From Methylococcus sp. Mc7 (GTDB lineage Bacteria; Pseudomonadota; Gammaproteobacteria; Methylococcales; Methylococcaceae), in the NCBI RefSeq assembly GCF_019285515.1, contig NZ_CP079095.1:2111501-2175500 (forward strand): a stretch of DNA of 64,000 bases, in the 5' to 3' direction. Of this stretch, positions 17,887 to 27,200 are shown one piece after another. Numbering within the stretch: position 1 is the stretch's first letter; each line of letters begins with the position of its first letter. The notes beneath the pieces were generated by a model, which was not told the DNA's origin, made no database searches, and was given only the letters and a program-made list of their open reading frames with translations. A program made the translations under genes and the position numbers.

Positions 17887-18122
17887 GGCGTGCTCCGGGC
17901 TGGGAAACCTTCCGGGACCGCATTGTGCGTCGGCTCGACGCCCCGCGCAAATGCTGTTTCCGCTCGTCTGGCAGCGGTTCCCGGCGAGTCACGAAAGTGT
18001 AACGAACCGCCTTTAATCTTCCGGACGATGGACGCCTCCGTATGCCACGCCCTTTCCGCTAATCGAACGACCCGCTTCCGCCGGCCAGCATTTGTGATGA
18101 CCGCCAGGACTTTGGTGTGGAA

Positions 18123-21100
18123 ATGAACACAATGGAAAAGAACCTCTATGCGGCCGATACGATCATGAGCTCCCGGCCTTCCGGCGAGACTCGGGTCAGC
18201 GTGCTGCGGATGCCCGCTCCCGGCCGGCTGCGCGTCAAGGTGGTGGGCCTGTACCGCTGCGACGACATGCAGCGGGCGCTCGAAGCCTTGCCGTCGGAAG
18301 CGCAGGCGCTGCGCATGGTCAGCGCCAATCCGGTCACGGGCAATGCCCTGGTCGTCTTCGATCCGCAATGCCCTCTGGCCGCGGTGCTCACAGCGCTGGA
18401 ACGATGCGCGCTGATTCATGGCGCGCCTTTTCCCGTCCCCAGGTCCAGGCCGGTATCGGGCCGGAGCTCGGCCGAGCCGAAGCGCGGACGGGGCAAGCGC
18501 CCCGCCGCCGCCCCTCGTCCTAAGCTGGCCGCCGTCGTCGGGGACACCGTAAGAAGCAAGGAGAGCTGGCATACCCTGGACGCCGAGGACGTGCTTTCCC
18601 GTCTGTCGGCGAACCGGGACGGCCTCAGTTCCGCCGTGGCCGCGGACAGGCTGCTGCAGTATGGGCACAACGTGCTGACCGAGATCAAGCCGCGTTCGGC
18701 GGTGGCGATGTTCCTGGAGCAGTTCGCCAGCCCCCCCGTCGCCCTGCTGGGGCTTTCCGCCGCCGTATCCATCGCCACCGGCGGCATGGCCGATGCGGTG
18801 GTGATCGTCGGCGTGGTGCTGATCAACGCCGTGATCGGCTACGTGACGGAGGCACAGGCGCAGAAGACGATCGACGCCCTGGGCAAGATCGGCCCGACCC
18901 AGGCCCTCGTCATGCGCGACGGCGTCAAGCGGTCGGTGGCCCTGGAAGACGTGGTGCCCGGCGACATCCTGGTGCTCTCGCCCGGCTCCTACATCGCCGC
19001 GGACGCCCGCCTGCTGGGGAGCAACCAGCTAACCGTCGACGAATCGGCACTGACGGGCGAGAGCCTGCCGGTGAGCAAGCGCCATGCCTTCGTCGGCACC
19101 AAGGACACGCCCCTGGGCGACCGCAAGAACATGTTGCACATGGGCACCATCGTGACGGGGGGGAGCGGCCAGGCGATCGTGGTGGCGACAGGCCGCCACA
19201 CCGAGATCGGCCTGATCCAGTCCCTCGTGGGCGAGGTGAAAACGCCGGAAACCCCTTTGCAGCGCCAGCTCGACGAAATGGGCAAGCAGCTCGCGCTGGC
19301 CTCCAGCGGTATCTGCGTGTTCGTGTTCGGGTTGGGCGTCCTGCGCGGCGCTCCGGCGCTGCAGATGCTGAAGACGGCGATTTCGCTGGCGGTGGCCGCC
19401 GTTCCCGAAGGCTTGCCCACGGTGGCGACGTCCACGCTGGCGCTCGGCATCCGCGAAATGAAGAAGCGCCACGTCCTGGTCCGTCAACTGCCTTCGGTGG
19501 AAAGTTTGGGCTCGGTGCAGACGCTGTGCCTGGACAAGACCGGCACGCTGACCGAGAACTGCATGCGGGTCGTCAGCCTCAAGACGCCAGACCAGGACAT
19601 CGGCTTGTCTCCTTCGGGCGAATTCCGCTCGAACGGGCAGACGGTCCGGCCCGCCGAGGCCGAAGACCTGCGGCGCCTGATGCAGGTGGTGTGCCTGTGC
19701 AGCGAGGTGCAGCTCAACGGCGATTCGTGCCGGGCTGTCCTGCCCGGCACCCTTCGGGCAAATGTAAATCCGCTCCCGGCGGATTTGTCTGGCCGGCCGG
19801 GCCTGGATGGCTCGCCGACGGAAATGGCGCTGGTGGAGATGGCGATACACTCCGGCGAGGACGTCGCGGCCTTGCGCCGGAGCCTGCCGCTGGTCAAGAC
19901 CGTGCACCGGGCCGAAGGGCGGCCTTACATGCTGACCGTCCACGACACCGGCGGCGAGGAGCACCTGATCGCGGTCAAGGGCAGTCCCACTCACGTGTTG
20001 GCGCTGTGCGACCGGCGCATGGAAGGCGGGGTGCCGGTGCCGCTCGACGAGGACGCGCGGGCGGCCATCGTGGAGCAGAATGAACTCATGGCCGGCCAGG
20101 CGCTGCGGGTGCTGGGAATGGCCTACGGCTATTCCAGGGAGACCTCGACCGCGGCGATTTCCGAAAAGCTCATCTGGCTCGGCATGGTGGGCATGGAGGA
20201 CACCATGCGGCCGGGCATGGCCGAGCTGATGGCCCAGTTCCACGACGCCGGCATCGATACCGTGATGATCACCGGCGATCAGAGCGCCACCGCTTTCGCC
20301 TTCGGTTCGCGGCTCAATCTCAACTACAAGAAGCCGCTGGAAATCGTCGATTCGACCAACCTCGACGAGCTCGACCCGGACGTGCTGAAGGGCATCGTGC
20401 GCGACACCACGGTGTTCGCGCGGGTGGCGCCTGCGCAGAAGCTCCGCATCGTCCAGGCCCTGCAGGCCAACGGCCGGGTGGTCGCCATGACCGGCGACGG
20501 GATCAACGACGGCCCCGCCCTGAAGGCGTCCGACGTCGGCGTCGCGCTGGGCAACGGCAGCGACGTGGCGCGCTCCGTCGCCGACGTGGTGCTGGAGGAC
20601 GACAACCTGCACACCATGATCACCGCGGTGCAGCAGGGCCGGACGATCTACCGCAACATCCGCAAGAGCCTGGCGTACCTGCTCAGCGGCAACCTCGCCG
20701 AGATCGAGGTCATGGTGGTCGCGACGGCGATCGGCGCCGGCGAAGCCCTGAATCCGATGCAGCTCTTGTGGATCAACCTCGTCACGGATATCTTGCCGGC
20801 CGTCGGCCTGTCCCTGGAGCCGCCGGAGAGCGACGTGCTCAAGGAGAAGCCGCGCGATCCGAAGGAAAAGATCTTCCGGCGCGAGGATTTGCTCCGGCTG
20901 CTGCGCCAGTCCCTGGTGGTCTCGGCCGGCACGCTCGGCGTCTACGGCTACAGCCTGGCCCGCTACGGCCTGGGGCCCGCGGCTTCGACGAATGCCTTTC
21001 TGACGCTGACCGTGGGACAGATGTTTCACGCCGTCAGTTGCCGGTCCGAGCGGACGACCGTGCTGGATAAAAGGGCGGGCAACCCGGTGCTGGTGTCCGG

Positions 21101-21290
21101 CGTCGCCGCGACCGTGGCGCTGCAGGCATTCGCGGCGGTGTTCCCGCCGCTGCGGGGCTTGTTGCGGCTGACGCCGATCAGCCCGGCGGACTGGGCGGCG
21201 ATCGCGGCCGGCTCGGTGTTGCCGTTCGTGGCCAATGAAGCCATCAAACTGCTCCCTTCCAAGGAACCCGAAAGCGAGAACCGTGCATGA
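18123..21290 (+). CDS. P2A-type cation-transporting ATPase with N-terminal HMA-like domain
   Basis: A ~1055-residue P-type ATPase. Key motifs are intact: DESALTGESLPVSK (~residue 307), PEGLP in M4 (~428), DKTGTLTENCM (~470), GDGINDGPALK (~790), NLAE in M5 and INLVTD in M6, which supply SERCA-like Ca2+ ligands (Asn, Glu, Asn/Thr/Asp). This points to Ca2+ or Mn2+ export. An extra ~110-residue N-terminal region (RLRVKVVGLY ... ALVVFDPQCPL) looks like a heavy-metal-associated fold without its CxxC. The frame opens with GTG 18117; ATG 18123 or 18132 is likelier. Its stop overlaps the next gene's ATG. Confidence 0.9.
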   Translation: MNTMEKNLYAADTIMSSRPSGETRVSVLRMPAPGRLRVKVVGLYRCDDMQRALEALPSEAQALRMVSANPVTGNALVVFDPQCPLAAVLTALERCALIHGAPFPVPRSRPVSGRSSAEPKRGRGKRPAAAPRPKLAAVVGDTVRSKESWHTLDAEDVLSRLSANRDGLSSAVAADRLLQYGHNVLTEIKPRSAVAMFLEQFASPPVALLGLSAAVSIATGGMADAVVIVGVVLINAVIGYVTEAQAQKTIDALGKIGPTQALVMRDGVKRSVALEDVVPGDILVLSPGSYIAADARLLGSNQLTVDESALTGESLPVSKRHAFVGTKDTPLGDRKNMLHMGTIVTGGSGQAIVVATGRHTEIGLIQSLVGEVKTPETPLQRQLDEMGKQLALASSGICVFVFGLGVLRGAPALQMLKTAISLAVAAVPEGLPTVATSTLALGIREMKKRHVLVRQLPSVESLGSVQTLCLDKTGTLTENCMRVVSLKTPDQDIGLSPSGEFRSNGQTVRPAEAEDLRRLMQVVCLCSEVQLNGDSCRAVLPGTLRANVNPLPADLSGRPGLDGSPTEMALVEMAIHSGEDVAALRRSLPLVKTVHRAEGRPYMLTVHDTGGEEHLIAVKGSPTHVLALCDRRMEGGVPVPLDEDARAAIVEQNELMAGQALRVLGMAYGYSRETSTAAISEKLIWLGMVGMEDTMRPGMAELMAQFHDAGIDTVMITGDQSATAFAFGSRLNLNYKKPLEIVDSTNLDELDPDVLKGIVRDTTVFARVAPAQKLRIVQALQANGRVVAMTGDGINDGPALKASDVGVALGNGSDVARSVADVVLEDDNLHTMITAVQQGRTIYRNIRKSLAYLLSGNLAEIEVMVVATAIGAGEALNPMQLLWINLVTDILPAVGLSLEPPESDVLKEKPRDPKEKIFRREDLLRLLRQSLVVSAGTLGVYGYSLARYGLGPAASTNAFLTLTVGQMFHAVSCRSERTTVLDKRAGNPVLVSGVAATVALQAFAAVFPPLRGLLRLTPISPADWAAIAAGSVLPFVANEAIKLLPSKEPESENRA

Positions 21291-22480
21291 AAAAGACATT
21301 CCTCTTCACGTCCGAGGCAGTGACCGAGGGCCATCCGGACTGCGTGTGCGACATCATCAGCGACGCGGTGGTCGACCGGTTCCTGCAGCAGGATCCTTAC
21401 GCCCGGATCGTGACCGAGTGCGCCTTGTCGAAGAGCGTCATCTTCCTGGCGGCGCGCTTCGCTTCGACCGCGGTGGTGGACATCCCCGAGCTGGCGCGGC
21501 GCACCATCGAGGACATCGGCTACCATCCGGAGGAATTCTCCGCGCCGGAGTCCACCGTGGTGACCAGCTTCATCGTGCAGTCGCTGGAAGGTCGCGCCGA
21601 GCGCGACGAGGCGGAAATGACCGACAAGGAACTGGATAAGCTCACCGTCAAGAACCAGGTGACCCAGTTCGGTTTCGCCTGCAGCCAGACGCCCGAGCTG
21701 CTGCCGCTGCCCATCGTGCTGGCCCGCCGCCTGGCGCGGCAGTTGACCGGAGCCAGGCGGCGCGGCGAGGTGCCCTATCTTTCCCCGGACTGCACGACCC
21801 AGGTCGGCGTCGAATTCGACAAGGGCAAGCCGGCGCGCATCCACAGCATCACCCTGATCGCGGGCACCCACGGCGTGCCGGATCTGGGGGTGGAGGAACT
21901 GCGCGGCGATCTCGACAAATGGGTGATCGCGCCGGCGTTCGAAGGCGAGGCGGTGCGGCCCGACGAGAACACCGAAATCTTCGTCAACCCGCGCGGCATG
22001 CTGCACCGCAGCGGCCCGGCGGCGCATTCCGGGATGACCGGACGCAAGAGCGCGAGCGACACCTACGGCGGCTATGCCCGCCATTCCGGTTCGGCCCTGA
22101 GCGGCAAGGGGCCGCTGCGGATCGACCGGGTGGCCGCCTATGCCGCCCGCCATGCGGCGAAGAACGTGGTTGCGGCGGGGCTGGCCGAGGAGTGCGAGGT
22201 CCAGCTCAGTTACACCATAGGCCAGGCCCGCCCGGTGAGCGTGCAGGTATCGACTTTCGGCACCGGCAGCGTGGGCGAGGACGTCATCAAGCAGCGTCTG
22301 GAGAAGCGCTTCGATTTCCGGCTGGGCGCCATCGTCCGTGATTTCAATCTGCGGCGGCTGCCTTCCGAGTACCGGGGCAGCTTCTACCGCATGCTGCCGG
22401 CCTACGGCCATTTCGGGGCTTCTTTCACCGCCCTGCCGTGGGAGCGGACGGACAAGGCGGATCTGCTGGCGGGCGACTGA
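21287..22480 (+). CDS. Divergent S-adenosylmethionine synthetase-like protein
   Basis: The 397-residue protein aligns along the whole length of bacterial MetK (FTSEAVTEGHPD, GMTGRKSASDTYGGYARHSG, VDR-like IDRVAAYAARHAAKNVVAAG, AYGHFG). Several positions that are near-invariant in E. coli MetK differ: the Lys after GHPD is Cys, the Glu of GGEITTSA is replaced in LAARFASTA, the GAGDQG loop reads VKNQVTQ, Lys165 (PDAKSQV) is Thr (PDCTTQV), and Lys269 is Arg. His14, Asp16, Arg244, Lys245, Lys265 and Asp271 equivalents remain. It overlaps the preceding ATPase stop (ATGA). Normal SAM synthesis is doubtful. Confidence 0.8.
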   Translation: MKKTFLFTSEAVTEGHPDCVCDIISDAVVDRFLQQDPYARIVTECALSKSVIFLAARFASTAVVDIPELARRTIEDIGYHPEEFSAPESTVVTSFIVQSLEGRAERDEAEMTDKELDKLTVKNQVTQFGFACSQTPELLPLPIVLARRLARQLTGARRRGEVPYLSPDCTTQVGVEFDKGKPARIHSITLIAGTHGVPDLGVEELRGDLDKWVIAPAFEGEAVRPDENTEIFVNPRGMLHRSGPAAHSGMTGRKSASDTYGGYARHSGSALSGKGPLRIDRVAAYAARHAAKNVVAAGLAEECEVQLSYTIGQARPVSVQVSTFGTGSVGEDVIKQRLEKRFDFRLGAIVRDFNLRRLPSEYRGSFYRMLPAYGHFGASFTALPWERTDKADLLAGD

Positions 22481-22482
22481 GC

Positions 22483-24507
22483 GTGCTTCCTCGGCGCCAG
22501 AGCGGAGCGGCCTCCGCCGCTTGGGGCGAGACGGCGGCGGCACAGCACAGGATCGATTACGGCGAGCGGTTCAAATATCCCGTTCTGGCGCTGGGCGCGT
22601 CGGTGGCCGCGACGCCCTTGGAATTGCCGTTCGCGCCCGCCGTCGTCGGCATCGTCCTCGCGCGCGCCGCTTTTCCCTTGTGGAAGCGCACCCTCGCCAA
22701 CCTGAAAAAGACCGGACGCCCCAACGCCGACCTCCTGGATTCGCTATGGGTTCTGGTCCACGGCGCGACGGGCGAAATGTTCGCGCCCGCCCTGGCCATC
22801 TGCCTCACCGAGACCGCCCGCGTGCTCAGGGATCTGACCGCCATCACCGGCGAGCGGCGCAAGCCCGACATGGTTCCCAACCGGCAGTACTGGATCGAGC
22901 GCAAGGGCAGAAGACGGCTGGTCCTGGCGAAGGACTTGCGGAAGGACGATCACGTTTTCCTCGGACCCGGCGACCGGGTGCCGGGCGATGGCGTCGTGGT
23001 GGGCGGCGACGGGCTGATCGACGAGCACGACCTGCTGGGCGGCGCCAAGCTGGTGCCGCGCACGGCTCTCGACGAAGTCTATGCGGCGTCCCTCCTGACC
23101 CAGGGACGCCTGGTGGTGGAGATGCGCCGGCTGGGGGCGGAAACGCGGATGGCGCAGATGGCCGAAACGGTCAAGGAGCGGCCCTGGAAGGAAACCCGGA
23201 TCAGCAACTACATGGAAGAGATCGGCAACCAGGCGGTGATGCCGGCGATCGGGGCCAGCGCGCTGGTGTTCGCGGTGACCGCCAGCCTGCCCAGGGCCGT
23301 CGCGCCGCTTCAATTGGACTTCGCCCAGGGCATCGGCGTCAGCGCGCCGGTCCCGGTGCTGGCCTCGCTCCATCACGCCGCTCAGAACCGGATTCTCGTC
23401 CGCAGCGGCCACGCGCTGGAGCAGTTGGCGAAGGTGGACGCCGTGGTGTTCGACAAGACCGGAACGCTGACCGAGCGCGGTGTGGAGGTCGGCTCGGTGG
23501 AAACCTCCCTGTCTTCGGTCTCCGAAGACGAACTGCTGTACTGGGCGGCATCGGCGAACCGCTACGTCCTGCGGCCGTTCAGCGCCGCGCTGGTCGCGTA
23601 TGCCGAAGGAAGATGCGTGGCGCTGACGGCCAGTGATCCGCTGGACTACTCCGACTCCGCCGTCGTGTCCCACGTGGACGGGCGCGAAATCGTCGTCGGG
23701 ACGTTCCAGTTCCTGGAGTCGCGCGGCATTCCGGTGGACGCCGAATATCACCGCAGGCACGATGGCGTCATCCTCAATCGCTCGATCCGCTACGTCGCCC
23801 GCGACCGTGAAGTCCTGGGCGCGATTTTCTTCAGCAACGCCCTGCGGCGGGAAAGCGCGGTCACCATCGAGACTTTGAGGCGCATGGGCATATCGTGTTA
23901 CCTGCTGACCGGGGACACCAGCAAGTCCGCAAACGCGGTGGCGTACAAGCTCGGCATCAGGCCGGGCTGCACTTTCGCGGAAGCTTCTCCCGAACACAAG
24001 GTGGAAGTGCTGAGCAGATTGCGCCGGAAACACAGGGCGATCGCCTATGTGGGCGACGGGATCAACGATGCGCCCGCCATGAGCCATGCCGACGTGGCGG
24101 TCTCCTTCCAGCAGGCGACCGATCTCGCCCGGGAGACGGCGGACGTGGTGCTGCTCGACGACGGCCTCCAGGGGCTGTGCTACGGCATCGAGACCGCCCG
24201 CGAGGCGATGCGGCTGGTGCACCAGAACATCGTGGCGGTCACGGCCGCGAACATCGCCGTGGTGGCCGGCGGGGTTTTCTTCAATCTGAGCACGGTGAGC
24301 GCGGTCGTCGTCAACAACGGGGCGGCGCTTCTGGCCTGCCTCAACGGCATGCGGCCGCTTTATGCGGGCGAGCGTAGGGACCCGGAAATACAGCGGACCA
24401 CGCTTCGGGACGACGAAAGCCTGCTGGGCATTCCCTGGCGCAAACGCGGCCGCGCCGGCGTCGATGGCATCCTCGGCGGCCATTCGGGGCACGCCGAGCC
24501 GGCCTAG
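22483..24507 (+). CDS. P1B-like P-type ATPase lacking key motifs
   Basis: From GTG 22483 the protein is ~674 residues. It keeps the phosphorylation site FDKTGTLTERG (~residue 323), TGDTSKSANAVA and VGDGINDAPAMSHADVAVS (~523), with membrane segments before and after. It lacks the A-domain TGES loop (here LLGGAKLVPR, ~183), the CPx metal motif of the P1B transmembrane helix (here GVSAPVPVL, ~286), and the HP dipeptide (here RP). It also lacks N-terminal metal-binding repeats. It may phosphorylate but not cycle or transport normally. It begins 2 bp after the MetK-like gene; a longer in-frame start inside that gene is less likely. Confidence 0.8.
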   Translation: MLPRRQSGAASAAWGETAAAQHRIDYGERFKYPVLALGASVAATPLELPFAPAVVGIVLARAAFPLWKRTLANLKKTGRPNADLLDSLWVLVHGATGEMFAPALAICLTETARVLRDLTAITGERRKPDMVPNRQYWIERKGRRRLVLAKDLRKDDHVFLGPGDRVPGDGVVVGGDGLIDEHDLLGGAKLVPRTALDEVYAASLLTQGRLVVEMRRLGAETRMAQMAETVKERPWKETRISNYMEEIGNQAVMPAIGASALVFAVTASLPRAVAPLQLDFAQGIGVSAPVPVLASLHHAAQNRILVRSGHALEQLAKVDAVVFDKTGTLTERGVEVGSVETSLSSVSEDELLYWAASANRYVLRPFSAALVAYAEGRCVALTASDPLDYSDSAVVSHVDGREIVVGTFQFLESRGIPVDAEYHRRHDGVILNRSIRYVARDREVLGAIFFSNALRRESAVTIETLRRMGISCYLLTGDTSKSANAVAYKLGIRPGCTFAEASPEHKVEVLSRLRRKHRAIAYVGDGINDAPAMSHADVAVSFQQATDLARETADVVLLDDGLQGLCYGIETAREAMRLVHQNIVAVTAANIAVVAGGVFFNLSTVSAVVVNNGAALLACLNGMRPLYAGERRDPEIQRTTLRDDESLLGIPWRKRGRAGVDGILGGHSGHAEPA

Positions 24508-24554: not shown

Positions 24555-24570
24555 TGCAGGAAGAGTGCGA

Positions 24571-26034
24571 ATGATATCGATCAGGGTCGTATTCCCCTTT
24601 ATTTTTGCTTTGCAGATATTCGTCGCCGTGGGACTGACGGGGGCCATCGCCTATGTCAGCCACATGAGGGAGGCGCAGGACACCGCCGAGGAGATCCTCG
24701 AATTGATCGGGAATACGATCGACGACCAGCTCTACCGCTTTCTGTCCCTGCCCATCGATATGACCCAGTTTTACGCGGATGGCCTCAGAAGCCAGCCGGA
24801 TCTGCCGCTCGGCGATCTGCTGGAGCCACGGCTGGTGAAGAGGCTCTCAAACTGCGTCTGGACCCAGGCCCGGATGACGCGTTGGGCGAATCTCAGCATC
24901 GCCAATCCCGCCGGGCAGAACCTCAGGTTCGACCGCAGGGAGTACGGCAAGAAGGTGGTCAAGGTGTCCGACATCCGGCGGGGCGGCGCCGTCGAATGGC
25001 GTTTGCTGGAGAATTACGGGAAAGGCGGTGCGCCGCTGGAGGTGCAGGAGGTCGCCTACGATCCCCGTGCCGAGGCGTACTACCAGGACGCGCTGGCCAA
25101 GGGCGGCCTGGTCATCTCGCCGATCCATTTCAGCCCGGTTCTGCAAGGTTCGGCGCCCGTCGTGACGGTGGCCGAGCCGGTCTATGCGGCGGACGGCAGG
25201 CCCAGGGCGGTGGTCTCGTCCGACATCTATCTGGCCGGCATCAGCCGCTATCTTCAGAACCTCCATCTGCCGAATTCCTCCATCGCTTTCCTCCTCGACG
25301 CCGAAGGCCACCTGATCGCCGCCTCGCGCGGCTCGGCCTCGACGCCGGGGCGGCTGCTGCTTGCGGCCGAAAGCACGGATTCCGTCATTCGCAGCACGGC
25401 CGGGTACATCGGCGAGCGCTTCGGCTTTCTCGAGGTTCCGGACGCCGAATCGTTCAAATACGTGCGCGGCGACCAGCACAATTATGTGTACACCGACCAT
25501 CTCCTCACCGACCGGCAGTTCGCCGGTCTCGGCCTGGACTGGAGACTGGCCGTGGTGATCGCGGAAAGCGACTTGATCGAAAATCTCATCACCGGCATCC
25601 ATTCGGCCGCCTGGCTGTCGCTGGGTCTGCTGGTGCTGGCCATCGCCGTGGGTTTGTGGACCGGAGCCTGGATGATCCGTCCCATCCTCACCTTGGGTAA
25701 GGTGGCGGCGGCCCTGGAAAAAGACGAACTCGACGCGCGGCACCTCGACATCCGCCAGCTCGAGCGCGACGCCCGCCGGCGCAACGAATTCGGCGAACTG
25801 GCTCGCATTTTTCTGCGCATGGTCCAGGAAGTGCGGGCCCGTCACGACCTGCTCGAGGCTCAGTTGGAGCAGCTTCGGGTCAACATCGACGAGACCGGCA
25901 CGCAGGCCAAGATCAAGCAGATCACCGACAGCGAATTTTTCGCCGAATTGAAAAGCAACGCCAGGCGCATTCGGGACGAGCGGAAGCGCGCCGCGGAACC
26001 GCCGGTGCGGGCTTTCGTCGAGCATGAACCTTGA
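24571..26034 (+). CDS. Cache-HAMP membrane sensor without output domain
   Basis: The ~487-residue protein has a first membrane segment (~residues 5-28), a long extracytoplasmic double-Cache-like region (~35-335), a second membrane segment (~345-368: LSLGLLVLAIAVGLWTGAWM), a HAMP domain starting MIRPILTLGKVAAALEKDEL and a short coiled coil ending in a charged tail. No kinase, GGDEF, methyl-accepting or phosphatase domain follows, so the signal must go to a separate protein. The neighbouring MinD-like ATPase is a candidate. ATG 24571 is preferred over GTG 24565 because AGGAAGAG is then well spaced. Confidence 0.8.
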   Translation: MISIRVVFPFIFALQIFVAVGLTGAIAYVSHMREAQDTAEEILELIGNTIDDQLYRFLSLPIDMTQFYADGLRSQPDLPLGDLLEPRLVKRLSNCVWTQARMTRWANLSIANPAGQNLRFDRREYGKKVVKVSDIRRGGAVEWRLLENYGKGGAPLEVQEVAYDPRAEAYYQDALAKGGLVISPIHFSPVLQGSAPVVTVAEPVYAADGRPRAVVSSDIYLAGISRYLQNLHLPNSSIAFLLDAEGHLIAASRGSASTPGRLLLAAESTDSVIRSTAGYIGERFGFLEVPDAESFKYVRGDQHNYVYTDHLLTDRQFAGLGLDWRLAVVIAESDLIENLITGIHSAAWLSLGLLVLAIAVGLWTGAWMIRPILTLGKVAAALEKDELDARHLDIRQLERDARRRNEFGELARIFLRMVQEVRARHDLLEAQLEQLRVNIDETGTQAKIKQITDSEFFAELKSNARRIRDERKRAAEPPVRAFVEHEP

Positions 26035-26094
26035 CATTTGACGGCGGCGGCATCGGGCCGCCGCAAACAGCGTGTACCTTCGAGGACTCGAGTC

Positions 26095-26862
26095 GTGGGA
26101 AAAATCATATCCGTACATTCCTTTCGCGGCGGCACCGGCAAGTCCAACGTGACGGCGAACCTCGCCGCCCTGCTTGCCCGCCGCGGCAAACGGGTCGGCA
26201 TCGTCGACACGGACATCCAGTCACCTGGCATCCATGTGCTGTTCAACCTCTCGCCCGAGCGGTTCCGCTACGCCTTGAACGATTACCTGTGGGGGAAATG
26301 CCGGATCGAGGAGGCCGCCTATGACGTCAGCGGCGTGCTGGAAGGACATCGGCTGAAGGAGGGCGGTTCCCTGCACCTGATACCGGGCAGCATGCGTACC
26401 GGCGAGATCACCCGGATCCTGCGTGACGGCTACGACGTCGGCCTGCTCAACAGCGGATTCCAGGAGCTGATGGAGCGGCTGGAACTCACCCATCTGCTGA
26501 TCGACACCCATCCCGGCGTCAACGAGGAAACCCTGCTGTCGATCGCCATCTCCGACATCCTGCTGCTGATTCTGCGCCCCGATCAGCAGGACTACCAGGG
26601 CACGGCGATCACGGTCGAACTGGCGCGCCAGCTCGAGGTGGAGCAGATGTTCATGCTGGTCAACAAGGCGATCAACCCGCAGGATTTCGGCGCGTTGAAG
26701 CAGCGGGTCGAGTCGACCTACCATGTGCCGGTGCTCGGCGTCCTGCCCCTCTCGGGCGACGTCGCCATTCTGGGCAGCGGCGGCATCTTCGCCCTGGCGA
26801 ATCCGGAACACCCCGTGACTTCCGTACTGGAAGCGGCGGCGCAGCGGATCGACGCCGCTTGA
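26095..26862 (+). CDS. MinD/ParA-like P-loop ATPase
   Basis: From GTG 26095 the ~255-residue protein has the deviant Walker A SFRGGTGKSN at its N-terminus, VDTDIQSPGIH (switch), a LTHLLIDTHPGVNEE Walker B, and VNKAINP as the base-recognition motif. This is the SIMIBI MinD/ParA class. There is no clear C-terminal amphipathic targeting helix of the cell-division MinD type. It starts ~60 bp after a Cache-HAMP sensor and 35 bp before a winged-helix gene, so it probably couples membrane signal to a regulatory output rather than dividing chromosomes. A longer TTG start at 26038 is possible. Confidence 0.85.
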   Translation: MGKIISVHSFRGGTGKSNVTANLAALLARRGKRVGIVDTDIQSPGIHVLFNLSPERFRYALNDYLWGKCRIEEAAYDVSGVLEGHRLKEGGSLHLIPGSMRTGEITRILRDGYDVGLLNSGFQELMERLELTHLLIDTHPGVNEETLLSIAISDILLLILRPDQQDYQGTAITVELARQLEVEQMFMLVNKAINPQDFGALKQRVESTYHVPVLGVLPLSGDVAILGSGGIFALANPEHPVTSVLEAAAQRIDAA

Positions 26863-26897
26863 CGAGCCGCTGCCGGTTTCGCAGAGAGGTATCCGAG

Positions 26898-27200
26898 ATG
26901 GCGCCGGAGCGTCCTTCATCCGCCGGTTTCAGGGCCAGCGACCTGCTCATGCTGTCGCCCGCCGAGCGTCGCGTTCTCCAGTGGCTGATGCGGCGCGGCT
27001 CGGGTTCCGTCCGCGAAGTCGCCGAGTGGTTGGAAATGCCGGAGGACGAGGCAGGCAGCCGATTGGACGCGCTGGAGAAGCGGGGTTACGTCGTTGCGGA
27101 GGGTGCCGGCGGGCCGAAGTCATACCAGCCGAAATTCGGCCGTTCGCGCCCGGCGCGGAAGCCGCCATCCGGCATCTGGGGAAAGCTGGACGGCTCGTGA
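26898..27200 (+). CDS. Small winged-helix protein
   Basis: About 100 residues from ATG 26898 (GAGAGG ribosome binding site 8 bp upstream). The core LSPAERRVLQWLMRRGSGSVREVAEWLEMPEDEAGSRLDALEKRGYV is a MarR/ArsR-like winged helix in which the second helix-turn-helix and wing are clear. The C-terminal ~35 residues are basic and Pro-rich (KSYQPKFGRSRPARKPPSG), which may bind DNA or a partner. It is the last gene of a six-gene co-directional run and could be its local regulator or an adaptor. No ligand-binding domain is present. Confidence 0.7.
   Translation: MAPERPSSAGFRASDLLMLSPAERRVLQWLMRRGSGSVREVAEWLEMPEDEAGSRLDALEKRGYVVAEGAGGPKSYQPKFGRSRPARKPPSGIWGKLDGS

Follow-up and report, generated by a model that had tools for sequence, protein, structure and literature searches.

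Does a MetK-like protein that lacks several active-site residues, and whose gene lies directly behind that of a P-type ATPase, still synthesize S-adenosylmethionine (SAM), or has it acquired a new function? Methionine adenosyltransferases (MATs) are among the most conserved enzyme families. An initial annotation of the window (the whole 64,000-nucleotide stretch of Methylococcus sp. Mc7 DNA analysed here) had described one of its genes as MetK-like, with a consistent pattern of selective loss in an otherwise full-length fold. The genes and domains considered are as follows.

18117-21290, + strand: type II (SPCA/PMR1- and LMCA1-like) P-type ATPase, 1057 aa, identified by Pfam P-type domains; the start codon was assigned mechanically.
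About 18198-18417, + strand: N-terminal HMA_2-like domain of this ATPase, without CxxC; weak Pfam HMA_2 match (E 0.035).
21287-22480, + strand: MetK-like (MAT-fold) protein, 397 aa, ATG start; supported by Pfam, TIGR01034, clade membership and dN/dS.
22438-24507, + strand: second P-type ATPase, heavy-metal class (TIGR01525, 369 bits against a cut-off of 346.25); its true start is probably downstream of 22438.

The MetK-like protein is a full-length MetK homologue. PF00438, PF02772 and PF02773 all matched above cut-off, and the same Pfam scan gave no match to the archaeal AdoMet synthetase family, leaving the three bacterial-type domains. Its score against the NCBIfam metK equivalog TIGR01034 (334.8 bits, cut-off 309.4) means that by sequence alone the protein passes as MetK. 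An AlphaFold2 model built from a 25-member alignment reached a mean pLDDT of 72.8 but was poor exactly in the active-site segment (residues 237-273, below 50), so its pocket geometry is of low confidence. The top Foldseek matches of the model were MAT structures only (best 7r3b, E 1.3e-33, TM 0.76). Membership in the three-domain MAT fold is safe.

We aligned the protein to E. coli MetK, the letters of which were verified against PDB 7ll3 (crystal numbering, Met = 0). Human and E. coli MAT residues were matched by constant offsets, not from a printed alignment. In human MAT2A, Glu70, Gln113 and Asp258 (counterparts of E55, Q98 and D238) hold methionine, and the residues given as catalytic are Glu23, His29, Lys181, Lys265, Lys285, Lys289 and Asp291 (PMC6850014). 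Five replaced codons are central to what follows.

21341-21343, + strand: codon of C19 (E. coli K17), Lys to Cys; lost only in the Methylococcaceae subclade, as Cys or Arg.
21455-21457, + strand: codon of R57 (E. coli E55, methionine-amino clamp), Glu to Arg by alignment; human Glu70 binds the methionine N (PMC6850014).
21794-21796, + strand: codon of T170 (E. coli K165, catalytic Lys), Lys to Thr in the Methylococcaceae subclade; human Lys181 is listed as catalytic.
22025-22027, + strand: codon of H247 (E. coli D238, methionine-amino clamp), Asp to His, as in 66 of 66 clade members; human Asp258 binds methionine/SAM (PMC6850014).
22118-22120, + strand: codon of R278 (E. coli K269), Lys to Arg, as in 65 of 66 clade members; human Lys289 is listed as catalytic.

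Two of the three methionine-holding residues are therefore replaced in the window protein (E55R and D238H), and Q98 is kept. Each loss named in the initial annotation could be seen in the alignment: K17, the Lys after GHPD, is Cys; the Glu of GGEITT is gone, the motif having become AARFAS; GAGDQG is absent, with TVKNQV in its place; and K165 and K269 are Thr and Arg. The catalytic and triphosphate residues that it listed as kept (H14, D16, R244, K245, K265, and D271) are all present. The changes D238 to His, D118 to Asn, and F230 to Leu had escaped it.

The proposal of a new function had been made to depend on the presence of a further metK. One other MetK homologue is encoded in this 4.0 Mb, single-contig genome, a canonical metK at G000:C1:1077232-1078368 with every catalytic residue intact, which is 41% identical to the MetK-like protein and 78% identical to E. 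coli MetK. A scan of GTDB species genomes yielded 25 divergent-type and 55 canonical loci. A maximum-likelihood tree set all divergent sequences apart from the canonical ones by a branch that had 100/100 support and was recovered in 100% of bootstrap trees. The separate clade with the same losses that the initial annotation looked for thus exists, and it supports a putative new function for these proteins. The clade spans Methylococcaceae, other Gammaproteobacteria, Cyanobacteria, Desulfobacterota, and Nitrospirota. A canonical second metK was found in 20 of 23 carrier genomes, the exceptions being draft MAGs; Cylindrospermum NIES-4074, like most other carriers, has both types. About three quarters of 38 Methylococcaceae genomes carry the divergent gene, nearly all together with the canonical one, and in wider samples it is sporadic (Gammaproteobacteria 11/369, Cyanobacteria 11/194, Nitrospirota 9/100, and 13/198 in Desulfobacterota, the phylum of Syntrophorhabdus). 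Within the genus, dN/dS of the MetK-like gene is 0.06-0.12 versus 0.03-0.06 for canonical metK, indicating purifying selection. In-frame TAG codons flagged by the search in four loci (L107, L109, L110, and L126) were considered as possible pyrrolysine codons and rejected, as there was no internal stop within the aligned part of the protein.

We counted residues in 66 divergent and 57 canonical sequences. E55 is Arg in 62/66, D238 is His in 66/66 and K269 is Arg in 65/66 divergent sequences, whereas the canonical residues are kept in 57/57. In the same set, I56 is Phe in 64/66 and F262 is Leu in 66/66, Q98 is kept in only five of the 66 (mostly Leu otherwise), and the GAGDQG loop is rewritten across the clade; F230 and D118 are variable. 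Other active-site residues are preserved, with E42, K245, K265, and D271 in all 66 sequences, R244 and D163 in 65 each, and H14 and D16 in all 63 that cover these positions. Clade-wide, a fixed Arg/His/Arg set thus takes the place of the methionine clamp, and the site for the nucleotide triphosphate is retained. The fixation of the new residues marks the change as replacement, as opposed to decay. The pattern and the fold described initially stand, but loss alone does not describe them. Nor do the losses form one pattern: the methionine pocket changed throughout the clade, but the loss of K17 and K165 is a second layer found mainly in Methylococcaceae. K17 is kept in 54/66 and lost only in nine Methylococcaceae-type sequences (Cys or Arg). 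K165 is kept in 53/66 and lost in the same nine, where it is Thr, and in four sequences outside Methylococcaceae. These counts are most simply read as an early rewriting of the methionine pocket, followed in the methanotroph line by loss of the catalytic lysines.

The gene neighborhood is equally constant. In the window, the ATPase stop codon overlaps the MetK-like start codon by 4 bp (ATGA). After opposite-strand shadow ORFs of both genes were filtered from the neighbor clusters, an ATPase of the same subfamily directly preceded the MetK-like gene, in the same orientation, at 62 of 62 loci for which flanking sequence was available (31 overlapping, 48 within <=60 bp), and a further locus set had the same arrangement except for two loci at contig ends. 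In one cyanobacterial genome (G619, locus L155/L101), a 1.2 kb gap separates the two genes and the MetK-like match misses the first ~20 residues, possibly reflecting an insertion or a broken copy. Across 761 sampled genomes, the two genes were nearly always jointly present or jointly absent. In the Cyanobacteria sample, 11 genomes had the MetK-like gene and 12 the ATPase, with 11 in common; in Desulfobacterota 12 were common to 13 and 13. The Gammaproteobacteria ATPase search gave 10 genomes, all 10 with the MetK-like gene; it missed the window genome, probably because only 2 of its 24 candidates were scored. Pairwise distances of the two proteins were correlated (Mantel r 0.90, 0/999 permutations as high), as would be expected of any operon. 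The two genes are one conserved unit that moves as a pair across phyla and coexists with canonical metK.

Among solved structures, the pump core is closest to human SPCA1 (ATP2C1; Ca/Mn) and Listeria lmo0841. Alignments to SPCA1 and LMCA1 showed the full core, with DKTGTLT and with conserved cation-site residues both in M4 (PEGLP) and in M6 (N-x-x-x-D). From these relatives, the putative substrate is of the Ca2+/Mn2+ type; the window pump scores below the NCBIfam equivalog cut-offs. The N-terminal HMA_2 match, weak in the window pump, is clear in the partner ATPase of locus L018 (Pfam, E 1e-9). An HMM made from neighboring HMA_2 proteins recognizes this domain, which has no CxxC, in 53 of 54 full-length partner ATPases, the exception having an apparently over-extended start. 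In Cyanobacteria, only one ATPase of the group (G498) has no MetK-like partner, and it is also without the HMA_2-like N-terminus, which is a single suggestive case. HMA_2-type type II ATPases at 41-43% identity without a MetK-like neighbor do exist (in G694 and as a second copy in G678), and their N-terminus aligns, so the domain does not require the MetK-like partner. The whole window genome has seven HMA_2-like matches, several inside ORFs of ~800-900 aa that are possibly further P-type ATPases; this domain type is therefore expanded in the organism.

Other neighbors are less constant. The heavy-metal-class ATPase lies immediately downstream of the pair in the window and in two other loci (L003 and L006), with relatives near L137, L159, and L160; it is a local addition, found beside the pair in Methylococcus and outside the widespread pair itself. 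Its usual CPx motif is apparently replaced (GVSAPVPVLAS, by eye), and no HMA domain was found in it. Three consecutive genes further downstream (24565-27200) may form a small signalling operon: they encode a dCache/HAMP membrane sensor, in which a Pfam scan found no kinase or cyclase domain, an ATPase of MinD/ParA type, and a winged-helix protein resembling TrmB/MarR. The pair is repeatedly accompanied in Desulfobacterota and Nitrospirota by small HMA_2 proteins, DUF5132 and DUF3562 proteins, and a repeat protein of 230 aa rich in alanine and glycine, and in Cyanobacteria by HMA_2 and DUF5132 proteins. Small HMA_2 proteins, which lack CxxC, tend to occur together with DUF5132 proteins as a set near the pumps (L015, L016, L018, L019, L022, and others). 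Members of the ~230-aa repeat family, which had no Pfam match, are encoded ahead of the ATPase at 18 of the 62 loci (e.g., L018, L019, L156, and L166), often near the HMA_2 and DUF5132 small proteins, and could be membrane scaffold proteins. DUF5132 was not found mentioned in the open-access papers searched. A Na/Ca exchanger-type protein follows the pair in three Methylococcaceae loci and a CorA protein does so in six others. These wider neighbors point to divalent-cation physiology, although they are not universal.

We slightly favor the interpretation that the MetK-like protein is a neofunctionalised, cytosolic MAT-fold partner of the upstream type II pump, with a nucleotide/triphosphate site and an anionic ligand, and without SAM synthesis. 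Its components are not equally secure. Judged by the residues, SAM synthesis has very probably been lost in the window's subclade. The partnership with the pump is strongly supported by genomics and we consider it probable. That the protein is a regulator or accessory with a nucleotide/PPPi site and an anionic second ligand, in that exact form, is tentative. In the proposed mechanism, the pocket would bind ATP or tripolyphosphate together with an anionic ligand instead of methionine, having been re-tuned away from an ammonium group. In human MAT, PPPi hydrolysis is separable from SAM synthesis (PMC6850014). Through ligand binding or turnover, the protein may tune the Ca2+/Mn2+-type pump as a regulatory or accessory subunit, with contact probably made through the HMA_2-like domain of the pump. 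Since K17 and K165 are gone in Methylococcaceae, the window protein most likely serves as a subunit for binding or regulation and catalyzes little or nothing. More broadly, we give an even chance to a two-gene pump system in which the re-tuned MAT-fold protein is an obligate subunit or dedicated enzyme, which either gates transport by sensing nucleotide or triphosphate or produces a new adenosylated compound.

A main rival is an adenosyltransferase with a new, anionic acceptor in place of methionine. Most clade members would still attack ATP at C5' and release triphosphate, the product would be moved, sensed, or used at the pump, and Methylococcaceae would have lost the activity secondarily. 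The triphosphate-site residues and D163 are essentially invariant, the non-methanotroph majority keeps K17 and K165 (54/66 and 53/66), and the amino-clamp acids have become Arg and His, a charge inversion. However, F230 and D118 vary, the acceptor and product are purely hypothetical, and the subclade of the window protein itself has lost the catalytic lysines, so we regard this as an unlikely, if serious, alternative. Those lost lysines, the variable gating-loop residues, and the operon linkage would also fit a pure scaffold or pseudoenzyme, a MAT fold with a vestigial site that does no more than give the pump an oligomeric platform on which to dock. We find this second main rival rather improbable: H14, D16, E42, D163, R244, K245, K265, and D271 are essentially invariant over 66 sequences from several phyla, and a vestigial site would not keep them. 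A second, unusual SAM synthetase supplying SAM locally has in its favor the NCBIfam metK score and the 2004 M. capsulatus genome paper, whose authors listed the metK genes MCA0450 and MCA0139 as redundant, with divergent phylogenies (PMC517821). The replaced E55, D238, and GAGDQG loop, the missing K165 in the window subclade, and the canonical metK in the genome make this reading very unlikely. A decaying paralogue or artefact, which the loss of several catalytic residues might suggest, is scarcely credible, and chance or decay is ruled out by the dN/dS of 0.06-0.12 and by replacements that are fixed, not random, in intact ORFs held in one operon at 62 loci in several phyla.

We found no description of the MetK-like/ATPase pair or its function in open-access papers, nor, within the same literature, functional work under the M. 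capsulatus locus tags or on metK paralogues with P-type ATPases. Any member scoring above the metK cut-off, including this one, would receive the SAM synthetase name from automatic annotation. What sets the group apart is a multi-phylum clade in which the methionine pocket is coherently replaced and the gene is invariably linked to a single pump subfamily. Should our interpretation of a neofunctionalised pump partner be true, P-type ATPases would have an accessory protein not described before, whose adenosyl or triphosphate chemistry may be new, and annotation would be corrected in Desulfobacterota, cyanobacteria, and methanotrophs. Because the genes form an operon, the partnership is directly testable.

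Among known systems, the PacL effluxosomes of Mycobacterium tuberculosis similarly join a P-type ATPase to dedicated small partners encoded next to it (PMC9374683, PMC13043812). Small proteins also lie near many of our pairs (HMA_2, DUF5132, and alanine/glycine-rich proteins), and in Pfam these small neighbors match HMA_2, DUF5132, and DUF3562. CtpC is a P1B metal exporter, whereas the window pump is type II, and the abstracts of those papers mention no MAT-fold partner. The ferrosome (fez) cluster, considered because of the HMA_2 and DUF5132 neighbors, also pairs a P-type ATPase with small proteins; its FezB is a putative ferrous-iron transporter and its FezC a DUF4405-like cytochrome. This identity is not supported, as no DUF4405 match occurred among the neighbors scanned and the pump is type II. 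The window pump aligns with SPCA/PMR1 (ATP2C1) and Listeria lmo0841/LMCA1 over the whole transport core but differs from them in the extra N-terminal HMA_2-like domain and the constant MetK-like neighbor; we know of no MetK-like neighbor described for those pumps. With bacterial MetK (EC 2.5.1.6), the MetK-like protein shares ~40% identity, the three domains, the fold, and the triphosphate-site residues. Unlike MetK, it has fixed new residues in place of the methionine clamp and the GAGDQG loop, has lost K17 and K165 in the Methylococcaceae subclade, and is encoded in an operon with a P-type ATPase, beside a canonical metK elsewhere in the genome.
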